This document shows, piece by piece, positions 535-37,776 of a stretch of DNA of 64,000 nt. Position 1 is the stretch's first letter; the number at the start of each line of letters is the position of its first letter. The notes under the pieces were generated by a model. That model was not told the origin of the DNA, did no database searches, and saw only the letters and a program-made list of their open reading frames with translations. This DNA is from Actinoplanes lutulentus (GTDB lineage Bacteria; Actinomycetota; Actinomycetes; Mycobacteriales; Micromonosporaceae): positions 248,001 through 312,000 of the forward strand of contig NZ_QLMJ01000007.1 of assembly GCF_003259845.1 (NCBI RefSeq), read 5' to 3'. Made by a program: the position numbers and the translations under genes.

Positions 535-3500
535 TCAGGATGCGTCACTGACGAAGACCGCCACGGAACGGGGTGGGACGGTCAGCAGATCGGCGGCCGC
601 TGTTGCCGTACGCAGGACCGGGTCCGCCGACTCGGCCAGCTCGGGATGCAGCCGCAGAACGGGCAGATCCGGCACCCGCTGCTCGGCGGCGTCCTCGGTG
701 CCGTTGAAGACGACAACGATCGTCGCCCACGGCGAGTCCAGGCCGGTGGCGTCGAGGGACATCACGATCACGCCGGGCGTCTCGGCCGAGCCGCTCAGCG
801 GGAACGTGAGCCGGCGCTGCACCTCGTCGGCCGTCGGCAGCCCGAAGACCGGCGACGAGCGGCGGATGCGCAGCAGCTCCCGGTAACGCTCGGCGGCCAG
901 CTCGATCACATCGGGCGGCGGGATCAGCTCCGGCGAGGACAGCAGCGGGCGCGCGAACGACCACGCGTCGCTGTTGTCGGAGTACGGCGGCAAGCCCACC
1001 CCGAAACCGTTGCCGAGCGCCGGGTCCCAGCGGATCTGGTTGAACCAGTCACCCGAGTTGAACGAGTTGCGGTCCAGCGACTTCGACCGCAGACGGTCAC
1101 TGCCGAGGGCCACGAATCCGGCGCCCTGGCTCAGCACCACCAGCGACAGGGCGAGCACCTGCATCCTGGCCCGGTCCAGCGGGGCCATGCCGGCCGGGAG
1201 CTTGAAGGCCATCGCGTCGTACAGAATCTCGTTGTCGTGGGCGTCGACGTAGTTGATCGCCTCGCCCGGATCGTGGGCGTAACCGCTGGGTGAGCCGTGG
1301 TAATCGATCTGCGCGCCGCTGAGCTCGACTCCCGTGTGCGTCGTGAAGCGATAGGTCGCCAGGGCGCCCGAGAGTCCGACTTTGATCTGGTCGTGCAGCC
1401 AGAGCGGCGTGCCCGATCCGAGGCCGCTCGCGAAACCCCGCACACCGGGGTCGCCGGACGAGCCGCCGCCGCGGATCGCGTCCCGGAGCCGGTCGTTGAA
1501 CGTCCCGATCCCGGTGCCGGCCATGTTGACCTGGGTGGCCTGGGCGAACCGCGCGTCGTACGCGACCTCGCCGAAGTTCCACCCCTCGCCGTAGAGACAG
1601 ATCTCCCGGCCGTGCTCGCCGAGCCGGTCCAGAGCTATCCGCGCCTCCAGGATGTTGGCACGCGGATGGTGGCCCATCAGGTCGAACCGGAAACCGTCGA
1701 TCTTGTAGTGAACCGCCCAGGTCACCAGCGATTCGATGACCAGCTTGCTCATCATCATGTGCTCGGTCGCGGTGTTCGGGCAGCAGGTGGACTCGGCGGT
1801 GCTGCCGTCGGCGAGCAGCCGGTGGTAGTAACCGGGCACCAGCCGGTCCAGGACGCTGAACCGGTCGAGGCCGTCGCCCATCGTGTGGTTGTAGACGACG
1901 TCGAGGACCACGCGCAGCCCGGCCGTGTTGAGCGCGGCCACCGCCGAGCGCAGCTCCAGGATCCGCCGCTCACCGGACGGGTCGGTGGTGTAACTGCCCT
2001 CCGGCGTGGTCCAGTGCCACGGGTCGTAACCCCAGTTGTAGCCGTCCTCGTCGGCGATCGCGGCGATGGCCTGCTGCTGCTCCGGCGAGTCCGGCGGGAA
2101 CGACGCCAGGTCGCAGGCCGGAACCTTCTGGTCGGCGCGCCGGTCCGGGACGGTGGCGAAATCGTTGATCGGCAGCAGGTGCAGGTGGGTGAGCCCGGCG
2201 CCGGCGAGCGACCGCAGGTGCCGCATCCCGTCCGAGGAGTCCCGGGCGAACGCCGCGAAGGTTCCCCGTTCGGCAACCGGAACCGAGGCGTCGAAGATGG
2301 AGAAGTCGCGGACCGAGACCTCGCCGATCTGCATCCGGGCCGGTGCCACGGCCGCCGGCTTCTCCAGCCGGTCCCAGCCGGGCGGCTTCAGCGCCGGATC
2401 GGCGAGATCAACGAGCTGGCTGTGCGTGGAGTCGGCGGCGAGCGACACCGAGTACGGGTCGGTCACGCTGGTCGTGACGATCCGCTGGGCCGCCGGGTGC
2501 CAGATCTCCACCTGGTATCGGTAGTACCGGCCCAGCCACTTGCGCTTCGCCGCGATCGACCAGATGCCGGTGACCTGGTCGCGGTCCATCGGCAGGACCC
2601 GGGGCTCGGCACCGGGTTCCCGGAACAGCTCCAGCTTCACCGAGATGGCGGTCGGCGCCCAGACCGACAGCTGCGGGCGGTCCTCGTCGCCGAACGTCAG
2701 GCCCAGCTCGGCGTCGGCGGCATCCGCGTACAGGTCGTCGAGGACGCCGGCCAGCTGCACCGAGGTGAGCGCGGTGACCTCGCCGTTCTCGTCGGTGCCG
2801 GTGATCACGAGCTGGCCGCGGAGCAGGTCGCCGAGGGCGGCGTCGCCCATCTCCCGGATGGCGAAGGCACGGTACGCGCGCAGATGCGGGAAACGGCGGC
2901 TCTGCGCCTGGAAGAGCCCGCCGGGCCGGGGCACCAGCGCGAGCTCCTGACCGTTACTGGTCAGCGTGAACGACACCGCCCGCGCCGCGAACCAGTCCGG
3001 CAGCGCGATCGTTCCGCGGTCCACGAACACGCCGTACGCGCGGGCCGGGTCCAGCTCCGGGCCGAGGGTGCCGAGATCGGGCCGGACCGGGGCCGCGACA
3101 CCGGCGACCATCCACAGCTCGCGGGCGATCGTCAGGTCCAGGCGCTGGTCGTCGGGCAGGTCCTTGACGTCGCCGCGGTGCACGACGAAACGCAGGCCGG
3201 CGGCGTCGGGGCGGACCGTGATCTCGAAAACCGCGCCGAAGGCATCGAAGCGGGCCGGTGCTGTGGGCGTACCCCAGCGGGTTTTCTCCTTGACCGGGAC
3301 GCCCTCCCAGCAGTGCAGGCCCCAGCCGGTGTAGTCGCCGTCCGGCCGGCGGTAGTGAATGACGATCTTCTCAGGCTGCTGCGGAGCAGGCGGCGGATCC
3401 TGGAGACGCCGGTCGTTGGCCGTGATCCAGATTTCCGACTTTTCCGCAATATCAACCCAGCGGTCGACGTCTACGTCTTTGGCGCCATAACGATGGACGA

Positions 3501-3744
3501 CCAGGAACCCGACTTCGCGGGCGTTCTCCGCCAGCCGCACCCAGGCAAAACGCCCGTTTTCGTCTTCGCCGTCGAAAGGGGCGCCACCCGGATAGATCAT
3601 CTCGTCGGCCACGTCGCCCCAGGCGTGCAGCGACCAGTCGGAGTAATCACCATCTGGCCGGTGATAGTGCACGATGAGCCATTTCGGGCGGGTCCGGCTC
3701 TGCGGCGGGTCAATCGCGGTCGCAGTGATCTCGATCGTCGTCAC
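535..3744 (-). CDS. pulA: Pullulanase-type alpha-1,6-glucosidase
   Basis: This 1069-residue glycoside hydrolase family 13 enzyme cleaves alpha-1,6 branches in pullulan, glycogen or limit dextrins. Two N-terminal starch-binding modules are visible as a repeated motif (HYHRPDGDYSDWSLHAWGD near residue 24 and HYRRPDGDYTGWGLHCWEG near 130), as expected for CBM41/PUD domains. The type I pullulanase signature YNWGYDP is at 568-574. The catalytic triad can be placed as Asp688 (DGFRFD), Glu720 (EGWNFGE) and Asp837 (DAHDNE). A C-terminal beta domain follows. No signal peptide is seen, which suggests an intracellular glycogen-debranching role. The start is a GTG at 3744 without a strong ribosome-binding site. 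Confidence 0.95.
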   Translation of the reverse strand: MTTIEITATAIDPPQSRTRPKWLIVHYHRPDGDYSDWSLHAWGDVADEMIYPGGAPFDGEDENGRFAWVRLAENAREVGFLVVHRYGAKDVDVDRWVDIAEKSEIWITANDRRLQDPPPAPQQPEKIVIHYRRPDGDYTGWGLHCWEGVPVKEKTRWGTPTAPARFDAFGAVFEITVRPDAAGLRFVVHRGDVKDLPDDQRLDLTIARELWMVAGVAAPVRPDLGTLGPELDPARAYGVFVDRGTIALPDWFAARAVSFTLTSNGQELALVPRPGGLFQAQSRRFPHLRAYRAFAIREMGDAALGDLLRGQLVITGTDENGEVTALTSVQLAGVLDDLYADAADAELGLTFGDEDRPQLSVWAPTAISVKLELFREPGAEPRVLPMDRDQVTGIWSIAAKRKWLGRYYRYQVEIWHPAAQRIVTTSVTDPYSVSLAADSTHSQLVDLADPALKPPGWDRLEKPAAVAPARMQIGEVSVRDFSIFDASVPVAERGTFAAFARDSSDGMRHLRSLAGAGLTHLHLLPINDFATVPDRRADQKVPACDLASFPPDSPEQQQAIAAIADEDGYNWGYDPWHWTTPEGSYTTDPSGERRILELRSAVAALNTAGLRVVLDVVYNHTMGDGLDRFSVLDRLVPGYYHRLLADGSTAESTCCPNTATEHMMMSKLVIESLVTWAVHYKIDGFRFDLMGHHPRANILEARIALDRLGEHGREICLYGEGWNFGEVAYDARFAQATQVNMAGTGIGTFNDRLRDAIRGGGSSGDPGVRGFASGLGSGTPLWLHDQIKVGLSGALATYRFTTHTGVELSGAQIDYHGSPSGYAHDPGEAINYVDAHDNEILYDAMAFKLPAGMAPLDRARMQVLALSLVVLSQGAGFVALGSDRLRSKSLDRNSFNSGDWFNQIRWDPALGNGFGVGLPPYSDNSDAWSFARPLLSSPELIPPPDVIELAAERYRELLRIRRSSPVFGLPTADEVQRRLTFPLSGSAETPGVIVMSLDATGLDSPWATIVVVFNGTEDAAEQRVPDLPVLRLHPELAESADPVLRTATAAADLLTVPPRSVAVFVSDAS

Positions 3745-7987: not shown

Positions 7988-8280
7988 GCCAGAAATCTAA
8001 AAACACCGATCAACACCGTCAAATCCATGTCGCATCCAGTCAGTGGCCCAGACCGCTGCTCCCGCCGAGGGCCCGGCCCGGTTCGCTGGCCGCTACGCGT
8101 CCAAAACGCTCCCCGCCCCAGGCGACCTGAGCAATCACTCCCGCTCCCCCTCCTATCACCCCCGCCCCCAAAAAAGGCAGGCCCACCCCCACTGCCCAGC
8201 CCAGCACACACCCAGCCCGTCCCACGGGCGACCCAGCACGCGGACAGTCCGGGCAGCGCGTGCCGCAGGCCGCGGGCGCA
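7988..8280. other. Non-coding stretch upstream of TPR gene
   Basis: Apart from the TPR gene promoter hexamer at 7994-7999, this stretch has C-rich runs (about 8140-8230) and a degenerate first unit of the 14-bp repeat at 8267-8280. Open frames here have repetitive, unnatural composition and are not called. Confidence 0.6.
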
Positions 8281-8602
8281 GGCCGGCTGGCGCAGGCCGG
8301 CTGGCACTGGCCGGCTGGCACTGGCCGGCTGGCACTGGCCGGCTGGCACTGGCCGGCTGGCACTGGCCGGCTGGCACTGGCCGGCTGGCGCAGGCCGGCT
8401 GGCACTGGCCGGCTGGCACTGGCCGGCTGGCACTGGCCGGCTGGCACTGGCCGGCTGGCACTGGCCGGCTGGCACTGGCCGGCTGGCACTGGCCGGCTGG
8501 CGCAGGCCGGCTGGCACTGGCCGGCTGGCGCAGGCCGGCTGGCACTGGCCGGCTGGCGCAGGCCGGCTGGCACTGGCCGGCTGGCGCAGGCCGGCTGGCG
8601 CT
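8281..8602. repeat. 14-bp tandem repeat array, 23 units
   Basis: Twenty-three consecutive 14-bp units run without interruption. Type A is GGCCGGCTGGCACT and type B is GGCCGGCTGGCGCA. The order is B, six A, B, seven A, then B-A-B-A-B-A-B and a final GGCCGGCTGGCGCT that merges into the 64-bp repeat. As 14 is not a multiple of 3, every frame reads as a 14-residue repeat, which explains the long spurious frames. Each unit contains the GCCGGC palindrome. Confidence 0.97.
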
Positions 8603-8740
8603 CACGGTTGCCTTGAAACGTTGCAGCGCGACCGTAAGCGCGAGCCGCTCGAAACCGGCTGGCGCTCAGGGCTGCCCTGAAACGTTGCATCACGACCGCA
8701 AGCGCAAGCCGGCCGAAACCGGCTGGCGCTCAGGGCTGCC
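8593..8740. repeat. 64-bp tandem repeat, two copies plus a partial third
   Basis: Copies start at 8593, 8657 and 8721, each with GGCTGGCGCTCA. The unit includes CGACCGCAAGCGCAAGCC and GAAACCGGCTGGCGC. The third copy breaks off into the next repeat family. A diverged relative with 63-bp period lies at 22664-22815. Confidence 0.9.
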
Positions 8741-8795
8741 AGCTGCACACCAGGGCGACCGTAACGTTCAGCTGGGTGACGGCGGAGTGCCTCGG

Positions 8796-9055
8796 CTGTA
8801 CGCCACGGCTGCCGGCTGCACGTCAGGGTCACCGCGACGTTCAGCTAAGTGACCACGGCGTACAGCCGGGCAACAGCGAGGCGGCTCGGCTGTACGCCAC
8901 GGCTGCCGGCTGCACGTCAGGGTCACCGCGACGTTCAGCTGAGTGACCACGGCGTACAGCCGGGCAACAGCGAGGCGGCTCGGCTGTACACCACGGCCGC
9001 CAGCTGCACGTCAGGGTCACCGCGACGTTCAGCTGAGTGACCACGGCGTGCGGCT
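8796..9055. repeat. 94-bp tandem repeat with internal hairpin, about 2.8 copies
   Basis: Copies start at 8796, 8890 and 8984. A diverged, shortened copy precedes them at about 8734-8795. In the first copy GGCGTACAGCCG (8857-8868) pairs perfectly with CGGCTGTACGCC (8887-8898) across an 18-base loop; the second copy has one mismatch (8951-8962 with 8981-8992). The array ends about 100 bases before the DUF2630 gene. Confidence 0.92.
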
Positions 9056-9162
9056 GGGTAGCGGGGCTGGAGTGGGCTTTGGGGTTGCGGGCGGGTGGGG
9101 CATGGCGGGGAACACGTCGGGTGGGTGGGTCTCGGGTGGGCTGGGGTGAATAGGCTTCGGGA

Positions 9163-13456: not shown

Positions 13457-14010
13457 CGCCGTCCGGTTTTGCCAAGCCGTCCGCCTCAGAGGTTGCCGCC
13501 GCAGCCGGGCGGACCATTCCCGATCTCGTCGGGCCGCACCTGCGCGTGCTCTTCTCCGGGATCAACCCGAGCCTGTACTCGGCGGCGACCGGCCACCATT
13601 TCGCCCGCCCCGGCAACCGTTTCTGGCCCGCCCTGCACGGCGCCGGCTTCACCGACCGGCTCCTGCACCCCTCCGAACAGCACCTGCTGCCATCGCTGGG
13701 CCTCGGGATCACCAACGTCGTCGCGCGGGCCACGGCCCGCGCCGACGAACTCTCGCCGGTCGAGCTGATCGCGGGCGGCCAGCTCCTGACCCATTTGGTA
13801 CGCGTAACCGAACCGGCCCACGTGGCAATCCTGGGCGTGACCGCGTACCGCACCGCGTTCGGCAAACCGAAGGCCCGGCTGGGCCCCCAGTCCGACACGA
13901 TCGGCGGGACCCCGGTCTGGGTGCTCCCCAACCCGAGTGGCCTCAACGCCCATTTCCAACTCCCGGCCCTGATCGACGAGTTCCACCGCCTGCGCGAAGC
14001 GACGAACTGA
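13453..14010 (+). CDS. mug: Mismatch-specific uracil/thymine DNA glycosylase
   Basis: This 185-residue glycosylase removes uracil or thymine from G mismatches in base-excision repair. The family motifs are visible: FSGINPSLYSAATGHHFARP followed by GNRFW near residues 34-60, GITNVVARAT, and NPSGLNAHF near the C-terminus that inserts into DNA. The Asn of GINP is the catalytic residue in Mug. The GTG at 13453 overlaps the preceding stop codon by 4 bases (GTGA), showing translational coupling to the SDR gene. Length is normal for the family. Confidence 0.93.
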   Translation: MTPSGFAKPSASEVAAAAGRTIPDLVGPHLRVLFSGINPSLYSAATGHHFARPGNRFWPALHGAGFTDRLLHPSEQHLLPSLGLGITNVVARATARADELSPVELIAGGQLLTHLVRVTEPAHVAILGVTAYRTAFGKPKARLGPQSDTIGGTPVWVLPNPSGLNAHFQLPALIDEFHRLREATN

Positions 14011-34793: not shown

Positions 34794-34871
34794 CCAAACC
34801 CCGGTGATCCACCACACCGGTGACCGGAGCTGCCAAAATTCGTGTCGTACCCCGCGCGTACGATCCGTCGC

Positions 34872-35795
34872 GTGAAGTACTCCGTGCTGCGCCCGCTGGC
34901 CCTCGCGTCGCTGATCGCCAATGCCGCGCTGATCGTCACCGGTGCCGCGGTTCGACTCACCGGTTCCGGCCTCGGCTGCCCGACATGGCCGAAATGCACC
35001 GACGACTCCTACACGACGACGTCCGAGATGGGCGTCCACGGGATGATCGAGTTCGGCAACCGCCTGCTCACCTTCGTCCTGGTCGCCCTGGCGTTCGCCA
35101 CGTTCTTCGCCGCGCTGCTCAACCGCCCGCGCCGCAAATCGCTGATCGTGCTCTCCGTCGTGGTCGCGCTCGGCATCCCCGGCCAGGGCATCGTCGGCGG
35201 CATCACGGTCCTGACGAACCTCAACCCGTGGGTCGTGGGCATCCACTTCCTGCTCTCGATCGCGCTGATCGCCGGCTGTTACGCCCTCTGGCGCCGCATC
35301 GACGAGGGCGACGCCAAGCCGATCCCGCTGGTCCCGGCCCCGATCCGCCACCTCGCCTGGATCACCGCGTCGGTCAGCCTCGCCGTCATCACCGTCGGCG
35401 TCATCGTCACCGGCAGCGGCCCGCACGCCGGCGACCAGGGCGCCAAACGCAACGGCCTCGACCCGGCCACGATCTCCCAGGTCCACGCCGACCTGGTCTT
35501 CCTCCTGATCGGCCTGTCCGTCGCCCTCTGGTTCGCCCTCCGCGCGATCAACGCCCCCGCACACACGATCCGAGCGGCCGGCGTCCTGATCCTGGTCGAA
35601 TTCGGTCAGGGCATCATCGGCTTCGTCCAGTACTTCACCCACCTCCCCGTCCTCCTGGTCGCCGCCCACATGCTCGGCGCCGCAATCACCTGGACAGCCA
35701 CCCTCGCCGTCCTCTGGTCCCTCCGCACCCGCCCACAGCAAGAAGCCCCAAACCCCACCGAAACCCTCACCCCCTACGAATCGGTCACCGCCTAA
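34872..35795 (+). CDS. ctaA: Heme A synthase (COX15/CtaA)
   Basis: This 307-residue membrane enzyme oxidises the C8 methyl of heme O to give heme A for cytochrome c oxidase. The family pattern is clear: RLTGSGLGCPTWPKC in the first external loop with its Cys pair, EFGNRLLTF, GQGIVGGITVLT, HFLLSIALIAG, and in the second half GSGPHAGDQGAKRNG and HMLGAAITW with the heme His residues. About eight transmembrane segments are present. The GTG at 34872 is used because TACGAT (34859-34864) ends 7 bases upstream; a start at 34842 is possible. It diverges from sufR. Confidence 0.96.
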   Translation: MKYSVLRPLALASLIANAALIVTGAAVRLTGSGLGCPTWPKCTDDSYTTTSEMGVHGMIEFGNRLLTFVLVALAFATFFAALLNRPRRKSLIVLSVVVALGIPGQGIVGGITVLTNLNPWVVGIHFLLSIALIAGCYALWRRIDEGDAKPIPLVPAPIRHLAWITASVSLAVITVGVIVTGSGPHAGDQGAKRNGLDPATISQVHADLVFLLIGLSVALWFALRAINAPAHTIRAAGVLILVEFGQGIIGFVQYFTHLPVLLVAAHMLGAAITWTATLAVLWSLRTRPQQEAPNPTETLTPYESVTA

Positions 35796-35806
35796 CCCCT
35801 TTTTCC

Positions 35807-35903
35807 GTACGCGTAACCGCACACCTCTCAAGAGTCCCCCGCGACCTCTGACGCGGGTCCAGGCCGCAGCGCCCCTCTCGCGACACGTCGCCGGCCACTC
35901 CCC
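35807..35903 (+). repeat. Left arm of about 96-bp inverted repeat
   Basis: It begins GTACGCGTAACCGCACACC, 12 bases after the ctaA stop, and ends GTCGCCGGCCACTCCC. Compared with the reverse complement of 36814-36909, 84 of 96 positions agree, with perfect blocks of 23 bases at the outer end and 29 at the inner end. Confidence 0.93.
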
Positions 35904-35942
35904 CTACGCGTCCCGCTACCGGCTCCCCCGCGGCTCTCGGCC

Positions 35943-36016
35943 GCGACGCGGCCGCGTCACCGGCCCCAGCCCCCTTCGCGCGACGCGGCCGTGTCGCCGA
36001 TCCCAGCTCCCTTCGC
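35943..36016. repeat. 37-bp direct repeat, two copies
   Basis: Copies start at 35943 and 35980, each with GCGACGCGGCCG followed by TCACC or TCGCC and then CCCAGC and CCCTTCGC. They differ at only a few positions. Confidence 0.8.
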
Positions 36017-36248
36017 GCGGCTCGCCCTGGGTGCCGGGTCAAGCTCGGGATGCCAGGCGGGGTGAGCGCGAGTCCAGGCCGTTGCGCCACCCAACCTGCC
36101 TGCATGGCCCCGGCCGTTACGCGGCGAGGTCGCCGGCCCACCCGATGAGCGCGGCGCATGGCAGTGCCGGGCCGGAATCCAGGCCCCCGGGATCCAGGGC
36201 CGGGCCCAGAGCTCGCAAGATCGACCCCGGCACGACCGGAACGCCGCG

Positions 36249-36525
36249 AGCCGTCGCCCAGCCATGGAATGACCGGCCCATAACGTGCCTCAACGACGGC
36301 TGACACCGCCCGGCCGTAGCCCAGCCACGAAATAGCGCCCCGATTACATGCGCGAGCTACGGCCGGAGCCCCGCAACCCGCCCCGAACCCGTAAAGCCCA
36401 CCCGCGCCGTAGCCTCACCCCGCGCCACAGCCTCACCCCGCGCCGTAGCCTCACCCACGCCGTGGCCTCACCCGAGCCGTAGCCCAGAGAGGTCATCCGG
36501 CCCGATGACCTACATGCGCTACGGC
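36249..36525. repeat. Three copies of a hairpin-forming repeat with a compensatory change
   Basis: Copy 1 (36249-36301) pairs AGCCGTCG with CGACGGCT. Copy 2 (36313-36363) and copy 3 (36476-36525) pair GCCGTAGC with GCTACGGC. All share CCCAG after the left arm and a CCCATAACGTGC, CCGATTACATGC or GACCTACATGC stretch before the right arm. The C-G pair of copy 1 is an A-T pair in copies 2 and 3, so pairing is kept while sequence changes. Copy 3 also has an inner GGTCATC/GATGACC stem. Confidence 0.8.
36404..36474. repeat. 18-bp tandem array
   Basis: Units GCGCCGTAGCCTCACCCC (36404-36421), a variant with CCACAGCC (36422-36439), a third (36440-36457) and a 17-base fourth (36458-36474) lead into the left stem arm of hairpin copy 3. 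The unit is itself a form of that stem arm. Confidence 0.88.
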
Positions 36526-36813
36526 CCGCCCCCTCGCAGCCACACCACGCCTCACCGGTCGAGCCTCGCCTCGCGGCCGCGCTTGGCAGACGGCCGCGTT
36601 ACGGCCTGGATCGAGGCGGAGCGGAAGCTGCGCAACGGCCTGAGCTCGCACCCAGCCCGCGTGGCGACCCAGCTCGACCCGGCAACCACCGCAAGCCGCG
36701 CGAATGGACCTGGACCAGCGACACGGCCGCGCTACGGCCTGAACCACGCGGGGAGTCGGCGGCAAACGGCGGAGCGAGGGCGGGCTCGGGAGCCGGCGGC
36801 GAAGGGTTGGGCA

Positions 36814-36909
36814 GGGAGTGGCCGGCGACGTGTCGCGAGAGGCGCGTTGCGGCCTGGGGCACCGCGAGACCTCGCGGGGGACTCACGAGAGGTGTGCGGT
36901 TACGCGTAC
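36814..36909 (-). repeat. Right arm of about 96-bp inverted repeat
   Basis: It is the inverted partner of 35807-35903. Its outer end covers the stop and the last codons of the ATP-grasp gene, so the final residues VRVTAHLS are encoded by repeat sequence. The left arm encodes the same VRVTAHLS when read from the plus strand. Confidence 0.93.
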
Positions 36910-37776
36910 CAAAATGGCGTCGGCAAGACGGTCCGCCGCTGAGGGGGCTGAGCGCAGGAAGAGGCTGGGTTCTGTCAGCTCCAGCTCGATCAGCGTGGGG
37001 GCGCCGTCCGGGCCGGGGATCAGGTCCACCCGGGCGTAGAGGAGCTGGGACGTCCCACCTGGGATCGCGGCCAGAACCCGCGCCGCCACGTCCCGTTCCG
37101 CCTGCGAGGGCGTGCGCGGGGTGATGGACTCGTCGCCCGGCTGGATGGTGCCGTCGGCGGGGCCCTTCAGCATGGGGCCCTTGCGGATGGCGTGGCTGAA
37201 CGAGAGCTCGCCCGATTTGTCCGGAAGGCACAGGAGCGCGGTCTCGCCGGCCGTGTCGACCGCTCGCAGATAGGGCTGGATCATCGCGGTTCGGCCGGCC
37301 GCGTGGAGGCGGGTGACCAGAGTTTCGGCTTGCTCGCTCTGCGCGGGGAAAGCGTAGCGGCCGGTGTCCTGGCTGCCGGCGCTGATCGTCGGCTTGACCA
37401 CCCACTCACCCTCGGCCGGCGGCTTCCAGGTCTGGCCCGGTGCGACGAACTCGGTGGGGATGGTCGGGATGCCGGCGGCGGCGAGGTCGCGGAGGTAGAC
37501 CTTGTCGGTGTTCCACTCGACGATCGTGGCCGGGTTCACCAGGCGGGGCACGCGGTGCGCCCAGGCGACGAACGCGTCGTGGCGGGCCACGTAATCCCAT
37601 GGGGAACGGATGACCGTGAGGTCGTAACGGGACCAGTCCGCGGACTCGTCGTCCCAGCGGACCGCCTCGACGATCACCCCGCGCTCGCGCAAGGCGTCGC
37701 GCAGGGGGTGATCGTCGTCCCAGAGGTCAGGAAAGGTCGCGCACGTCACGAGTGCGACCCGGGTGGCGGTGCTCAC
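36883..37776 (-). CDS. ATP-grasp domain protein
   Basis: This 297-residue ATP-grasp ligase-like protein has the N-terminal VALVTCATFPDLWDDDHPL and VIRSPWDY, the nucleotide-binding WVVKPTISAGSQDTGRY and the metal site LIELELTEPSLFL. The type is that of RimK/glutathione-synthetase-like enzymes, close to the cycloserine cyclo-ligase fold as I recall; substrate is unknown. The GTG at 37776 is chosen since the upstream gene stops 2 bases before it. The last eight residues come from the inverted repeat, so the native C-terminus may have been changed. Confidence 0.88.
   Translation of the reverse strand: MSTATRVALVTCATFPDLWDDDHPLRDALRERGVIVEAVRWDDESADWSRYDLTVIRSPWDYVARHDAFVAWAHRVPRLVNPATIVEWNTDKVYLRDLAAAGIPTIPTEFVAPGQTWKPPAEGEWVVKPTISAGSQDTGRYAFPAQSEQAETLVTRLHAAGRTAMIQPYLRAVDTAGETALLCLPDKSGELSFSHAIRKGPMLKGPADGTIQPGDESITPRTPSQAERDVAARVLAAIPGGTSQLLYARVDLIPGPDGAPTLIELELTEPSLFLRSAPSAADRLADAILVRVTAHLS

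Follow-up and report, generated by a model that had tools for sequence, protein, structure and literature searches.

A probable old fold-back element copy, bounded by a dispersed terminal repeat, between two convergent genes of Actinoplanes lutulentus

We analysed a window of 64,000 nucleotides from Actinoplanes lutulentus (contig NZ_QLMJ01000007.1, positions 248,001 to 312,000 of the forward strand), in which a gap of 1087 nt separates two convergent genes (Table 1). The left gene had been called ctaA in a first-pass annotation of the window, which its COX15-CtaA domain bears out, and it has a match at E ≤ 1e-40 in all 67 genus genomes. The right gene gave no Pfam match at E ≤ 1e-3, and its label as an ATP-grasp gene is without confirmation. 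The inverted arms noticed by the same annotation are real: positions 35807–35902 match the reverse complement of 36814–36909 at 84 of 96 positions without gaps. A repeat search extends them to 101 nt (35802–35902 and 36814–36914; 86%), and with gaps allowed the inverted repeat reaches 290 columns at 75% identity (171 bits, E 1.6e-42). It is modular, with 85–90% identity over the outer 96 columns, 54–60% over the next 96 and about 80% further in, and the interior is full of smaller repeats, as had been remarked. A comparison of 348 gaps across 464 kb of the A. lutulentus genome (G000; the window plus 20 sampled stretches) ranks this inverted repeat as the strongest, the gap counts being approximate because genes were called with a simple in-house caller. 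Both arms are copies of a dispersed sequence of about 105 nt, here termed D, with the head GGTACGCG.

Table 1. Coordinates of the element, its modules and its neighbouring genes (window positions)
Feature	Position	Strand	Basis or remark
ctaA (COX15-CtaA domain), left convergent neighbour	34842–35795	+	stop TAA 35793–35795; PF02628, E 1.7e-22
Left D element (outer arm), head GTACGCGTAACCG at 35807–35819, pointing away from ctaA	35800–35906	+	D model, E 4.5e-9 genome-wide
Left arm of gapped inverted repeat	35807–36087	+	self-alignment
C module, left copy	36017–36124	+	similar sequence at G000:C5:174247–174353 and C6:341570–341652
A module, imperfect palindrome of ~128 nt, dispersed in G000	36244–36371	.	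several places, 69–83%
Short tandem run of ~18-nt units (CCCGCGCCGTAGCCTCAC)	36401–36484	+	repeat search
B module, palindrome of ~56–62 nt, many dispersed copies	36473–36532	.	genome search
C module, right inverted copy	36586–36699	-	genome search
Right arm of gapped inverted repeat	36630–36909	-	self-alignment
Right D element (outer arm), head at 36897–36909, pointing away from right-hand gene	36808–36915	-	D model, E 2.2e-9
Right convergent neighbour, putative ATP-grasp	36883–37776	-	C-terminal TAHLS encoded within D
GTACGCGTAACCG in the window	13798–13810, 35807–35819, 36897–36909		

The element had been thought to fill the intergenic space exactly, which has to be amended: the right-hand D overlaps the last 11 codons of the neighbouring gene, including its stop codon at 36883–36885 (...ILVRVTAHLS*). 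The corresponding protein stops five residues earlier in 38 of 40 relatives (37 times with x-R-L/V/I/F*, once with K-S-L*), and in the other two it ends one and five residues beyond this common end. From D to D, the unit measures 1116 nt, while the region used for searching and folding has 1125 nt. A hidden gene inside the element was considered and rejected, as there are just mutually overlapping frames on both strands, without support. Rfam returned no match for the window at the gathering threshold, nor for four loci at E ≤ 0.1. Elsewhere in the window (8240–9060) lies another repeat-filled gap, where units similar to GGCTGGCACTGGCC form a long tandem array and palindromes of about 100–220 nt come after it.

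The predicted fold of the 1087-nt gap scores z = -11.5 against 12 dinucleotide shuffles. The gaps at the ctaA locus of 32 relatives, scored in the same way, range from -10.5 to +2.1, so that strong folding is neither universal nor exclusive to A. lutulentus. For the 1125-nt region, one long hairpin with side branches is predicted (-683 kcal/mol), and 274 of its 390 predicted pairs cross the midpoint of the D-to-D unit. According to this prediction, the region would be able to fold as a single long hairpin, compatible with the arms belonging to one large structure.

The first-pass annotation had suggested looking for the arm sequence elsewhere, and D was found dispersed in G000 and in relatives. 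The 1125-nt region has at least 75 matches in its own genome, mostly to interior pieces (40 of 295 candidate places scored). As plain DNA, it found matches in just two of the 67 genus genomes, namely G000 and one piece in G059 (six candidates scored per genome); a model of D was therefore needed. This sequence-only model, R1, has matches in 51 of the 67 genomes and none in the other 16, while 12 genomes have at least 50–56 matches each (at most 56 candidates scored). In a family-wide draw, R1 matched 13 of 150 genomes: 10 of the 15 shown that belong to the genus, and three of other genera with one weak match each. A confinement of the arms to this one locus, conserved in distant genera, would have spoken against mobility in the first-pass annotation; the pattern found is the reverse, with D dispersed and mostly within the genus.

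An alignment of 28 D copies from G059 has invariant blocks between variable stretches (26 of 124 columns invariant), and seven copies from G000 have the same layout in different letters. In a tree of D, the G000 and the G059 copies form separate groups (support 100/99). Grouping by genome implies that the family turned over within lineages. We discarded an RNA structure in D alone: seven weak pairs are predicted, of which none covaries, and no double-sided change was seen. On the plus strand, the left D of the window has 49 C and 24 G and the right D 28 C and 47 G; that is, both are C-rich in the sense of their own gene. Many D copies are single, and each of the modules A, B, C and D also occurs singly elsewhere. 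In the titles, abstract openings and partial texts consulted, we saw no description of the D family, which does not prove its absence from print.

The 13-mer GTACGCGTAACCG occurs in 64 exact copies in G000, against none for the reversed control. As a marker of D, it was abandoned, since 11 of 30 examined copies lie inside called genes, so the 13-mer is wider in occurrence than D. The five gene-internal copies that run with the gene all share one phase and encode Val-Arg-Val-Thr; genomes of this kind seldom use the codon GTA.

D mostly sits downstream of genes and in few divergent gaps. In four genomes, the head lies no more than 100 nt from a same-strand stop codon in 78 of 106 copies (G059 25/31, G032 17/27, G005 20/27, G000 16/21), and so it does in one of the two copies read in G034. 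In each of the 25 facing pairs seen, the heads point outward. Convergent gaps are strongly enriched: D occurs in 52 of them, in 29 tandem and in two divergent gaps, against a background of 116, 433 and 112, respectively, in sampled sequence (Fisher 4e-17; two gaps were entered twice and three had been chosen for their palindromes). A fixed orientation of D relative to the preceding stop codon did not hold up, as orientation is about even in tandem gaps, and we keep the claim for heads facing the nearest gene; D thus marks the edge of a gap, and not strictly the end of a gene. In the relative G032, 15 of 57 D ends have the motif (G)AGAYC immediately downstream of the stop codon. Eight of these 15 stops are TAG, compared to 25 among all 113 stops of the loci fetched (rough Fisher p of 0.004 against the remainder, uncorrected for the way in which the motif was noticed). 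Separately, 23 of the 57 ends have a further sequence similar to GTGGTCGAGGTCCG on their outer side, and in some G032 copies a terminator-like hairpin with a short T run can be seen, by eye, just in front of such outer sequence.

Whole units are found in G032. Seven D-bounded units of 479–1326 nt each match a partner over 79–100% of their length, in both orientations and with roughly 68–95% identity per aligned piece. With one G032 unit as the query, at least 186 matches were obtained (40 of 388 candidate places scored). Twenty units chosen from that list measure 728–2106 nt and include no called gene; they are located in 12 convergent and seven tandem gaps, one gap of unresolved type and no divergent gap. 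Nine of them, compared over a core of about 640 nt, are mostly 88–94% identical where aligned, with one copy at 77–89%. Four core copies (L329, L330, L332 and L333) carry inversions relative to the others, of the flanks in three and of the centre in one; these inverted segments are natural spacer flips. The ends of 11 units have 72–87% inverted identity.

The gap between a gene for a solute-binding protein and a DUF6817 gene (Pfam) measures 2071 nt in G032, with 480-nt arms at 70%, compared to 15, 30 and 19 nt in G022, G045 and G066. In 17 more of the 20 relatives fetched, the second gene did not turn up next to the first (5–204 nt separate the latter from whichever called gene comes next), and these genomes therefore have no direct bearing on an empty site. 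The contrast between 2071 nt and 15–30 nt is the clearest evidence of movement; it concerns one locus, and the original short gap is unrecognisable in the filled site. Dispersed units and an empty site, taken together, lead us to conclude that the family has spread. The suspicion of a non-autonomous mobile element thus fares well for the family, with dispersed units repeated end to end in G032 and one occupied site empty in three relatives. Other expected marks did not turn up: there is no consistent target-site duplication at 25 facing pairs (the longest shared words are of 5–8 nt at scattered offsets), no transposase-bearing element in the fetched loci and no full-length second copy of the window element in G000 (40 of 295 candidate places scored), where several copies were found for D and the modules alone. 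Plasmid and phage collections hold no match for the 2071-nt unit.

At the ctaA locus itself, we examined the convergent gene order in 40 relatives, with gaps from 44 to 2465 nt. D follows ctaA in G000, G034, G054, G005 and G059. There is no D match at this locus in G051, though by these proteins it is about as near to G000 as G034 and G054 are. A strong D on the right side occurs just in G000 and G059, with weaker matches in three more distant species. In G059, D is present at both ends of the gap, and 592 of its 686 nt lie in a palindrome of its own sequence. A search for an empty site in close species had been proposed as a check; five species have short gaps here (44–171 nt in G013, G022, G032, G045 and G047). 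Some relatives' ctaA gaps seem to hold extra conserved sequence, and that of G051 (L021) seems, by eye, to hold a decayed gene, which we take to resemble one for a CAP/SCP-domain protein.

The two D copies of the window are each other's best match within G000 (80.7%, versus 72.3% at most with any other), and so are those of a second facing pair on C24 (84.4% versus 67.0%). The interior order C-A-B is common to the window and a gap on C5, and C-A to a gap on C6. Near the end of C6 (L063, about 3404–3518), a GAGCCC hexamer array of about 19 units lies beside A and C modules. In our reading, the copy in the window is old and mosaic and belongs to the D-bounded family. It probably arrived in an ancestor of A. 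lutulentus and its nearest relatives, and it has probably since decayed and gained other repeats.

Close likeness of facing arms is not a general rule. Mutual best pairs number 0 of 7 in G032 and 0 of 9 in G005, against 3 of 5 tested in G059 (pairs L132 and L154 are outside that alignment), so that homogenisation of arms holds for both G000 pairs and three G059 pairs and is not seen in G032 and G005. The ctaA pair of G059 agrees at 90.9%, compared to 84.9% at most. The three G059 pairs and the window were noticed by their palindromes and are hence biased, while the model search supplied the second G000 pair. Inverted repeats are known to undergo template switching that homogenises their arms and inverts spacers (PMC8604942 and PMC8794818, in the portions available), and like arms and flipped segments fit such a process.

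Taking these observations together, we consider it likely (a probability of about 0.68) that the gap in the window holds an old copy of a non-coding fold-back element, in which two D terminal inverted repeats of about 105 nt enclose dispersed palindromic modules at converging genes, and whose family moved as non-autonomous units and was reshaped by arm exchange. The elements would move with an enzyme supplied elsewhere, would aim at, or survive best at, the 3′ ends of genes, and would later be remodelled as their inverted arms exchanged sequence or switched templates; this last step is proposed to account both for segments flipped inside the units and for facing arms that resemble each other more than they resemble other copies.

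Selection rather than mobility might have retained D, if the structure were a bidirectional transcription terminator or insulator with a C-rich D after each stop codon and a read-through RNA that folds as a giant hairpin. Such a function suits D heads near stop codons, mostly in convergent gaps, the C-richness of D in the sense of the gene, and the columns that stay invariant over 28 diverged G059 copies; the window hairpin may also have a terminator role. As an explanation of D, we nevertheless hold it to be unlikely: D alone is without covarying structure, 16 of the 67 genomes are without a D match, the same convergent pairs live with gaps of 15–171 nt in relatives, and the near-copies of 1–2 kb in unrelated gaps are left unexplained. 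The unit-length copies in unrelated G032 gaps are also left unexplained by an origin in place from the D on the ctaA side, without movement, through inverted duplication or quasi-palindrome correction by template switching, as are the pairs of G005 and G032 that are not mutual best matches. We regard this local origin as quite improbable, even though D on the ctaA side is present in five species and a strong right-side D in G000 and G059 only, both G000 pairs and the G059 ctaA pair are so alike, the right arm covers the stop codon of the neighbour, and both arm homogenisation and spacer inversion are described for template switching.

It is hard to believe that unrelated small palindromes simply piled up in a tolerant convergent gap, with the ends as two independent arrivals of D. 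The single occurrence of each module elsewhere and the resemblance of the G005 and G032 pairs to independent family members would agree with a composite of this kind, but the shared C-A-B order of the window and the C5 gap, the near end-to-end homology of G032 units and the mutual best matches of the facing G000 pairs would not.

An old fold-back element copy, our preferred reading, can be compared with known systems. The miniature elements called MITEs or TIMEs (the latter derived from Tn3; PMC4133298, as far as its text was accessible) are alike in being non-coding, with terminal inverted repeats, many copies, and filled and empty sites; D units differ in that they reach 2.1 kb, have terminal inverted repeats of 105–150 nt and are predicted to fold on themselves, and in that neither a target-site duplication nor a parent transposon was found. 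Among the properties that define MITEs, terminal inverted repeats are present in the window (84/96) and in 11 G032 units (72–87%), the lack of coding capacity with multiple copies is seen in G032, and a filled versus an empty site at one G032 locus against three relatives; a target-site duplication was absent at the 25 pairs.

REP sequences and BIMEs (GTAG and CGTC families) are intergenic, downstream of coding regions and between convergent or same-direction genes, and REP units are often close together in opposite orientation (PMC3733652, available portion). The placement of D is alike. REPs are palindromes of 20–40 bp (same source), whereas D has about 105 nt, shows no conserved hairpin by itself and delimits units of 0.2–2.1 kb; no palindromic unit of 20–40 nt with a GTAG or CGTC tag was found in D. 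Eukaryotic fold-back transposons have long inverted repeats of variable length that are made of sub-repeats. D units are similar in their long inverted repeats built from sub-repeats and differ in being bacterial, and we know of no sequence common to both. Only tentatively would we go further and suggest a new class of bacterial fold-back elements that insert at the 3′ ends of genes, in many cases abutting the stop codon, using a target signal tied to the ends of translation or transcription and a route of mobility without target duplication.

Within the genus, many stable G+C-rich secondary structures are reported to have blocked sequencing in Actinoplanes sp. SE50/110 (PMC3364876); the part of that text available describes no repeat family. 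Elements like the D units might physically give rise to such structures.

If our reading is right, some of the long intergenic DNA between convergent genes of Actinoplanes, a genus of antibiotic producers, would be a spreading hairpin element of hundreds to about 2000 bases parked at gene ends, and not idle spacer. Related species with filled and with empty sites would then offer a clear setting in which to learn how elements without a visible enzyme reach gene ends harmlessly, how the likeness of long inverted repeats is kept up and whether hairpins of this kind alter transcription termination. Moreover, D-bounded hairpins may help to explain why such genomes were difficult to sequence.
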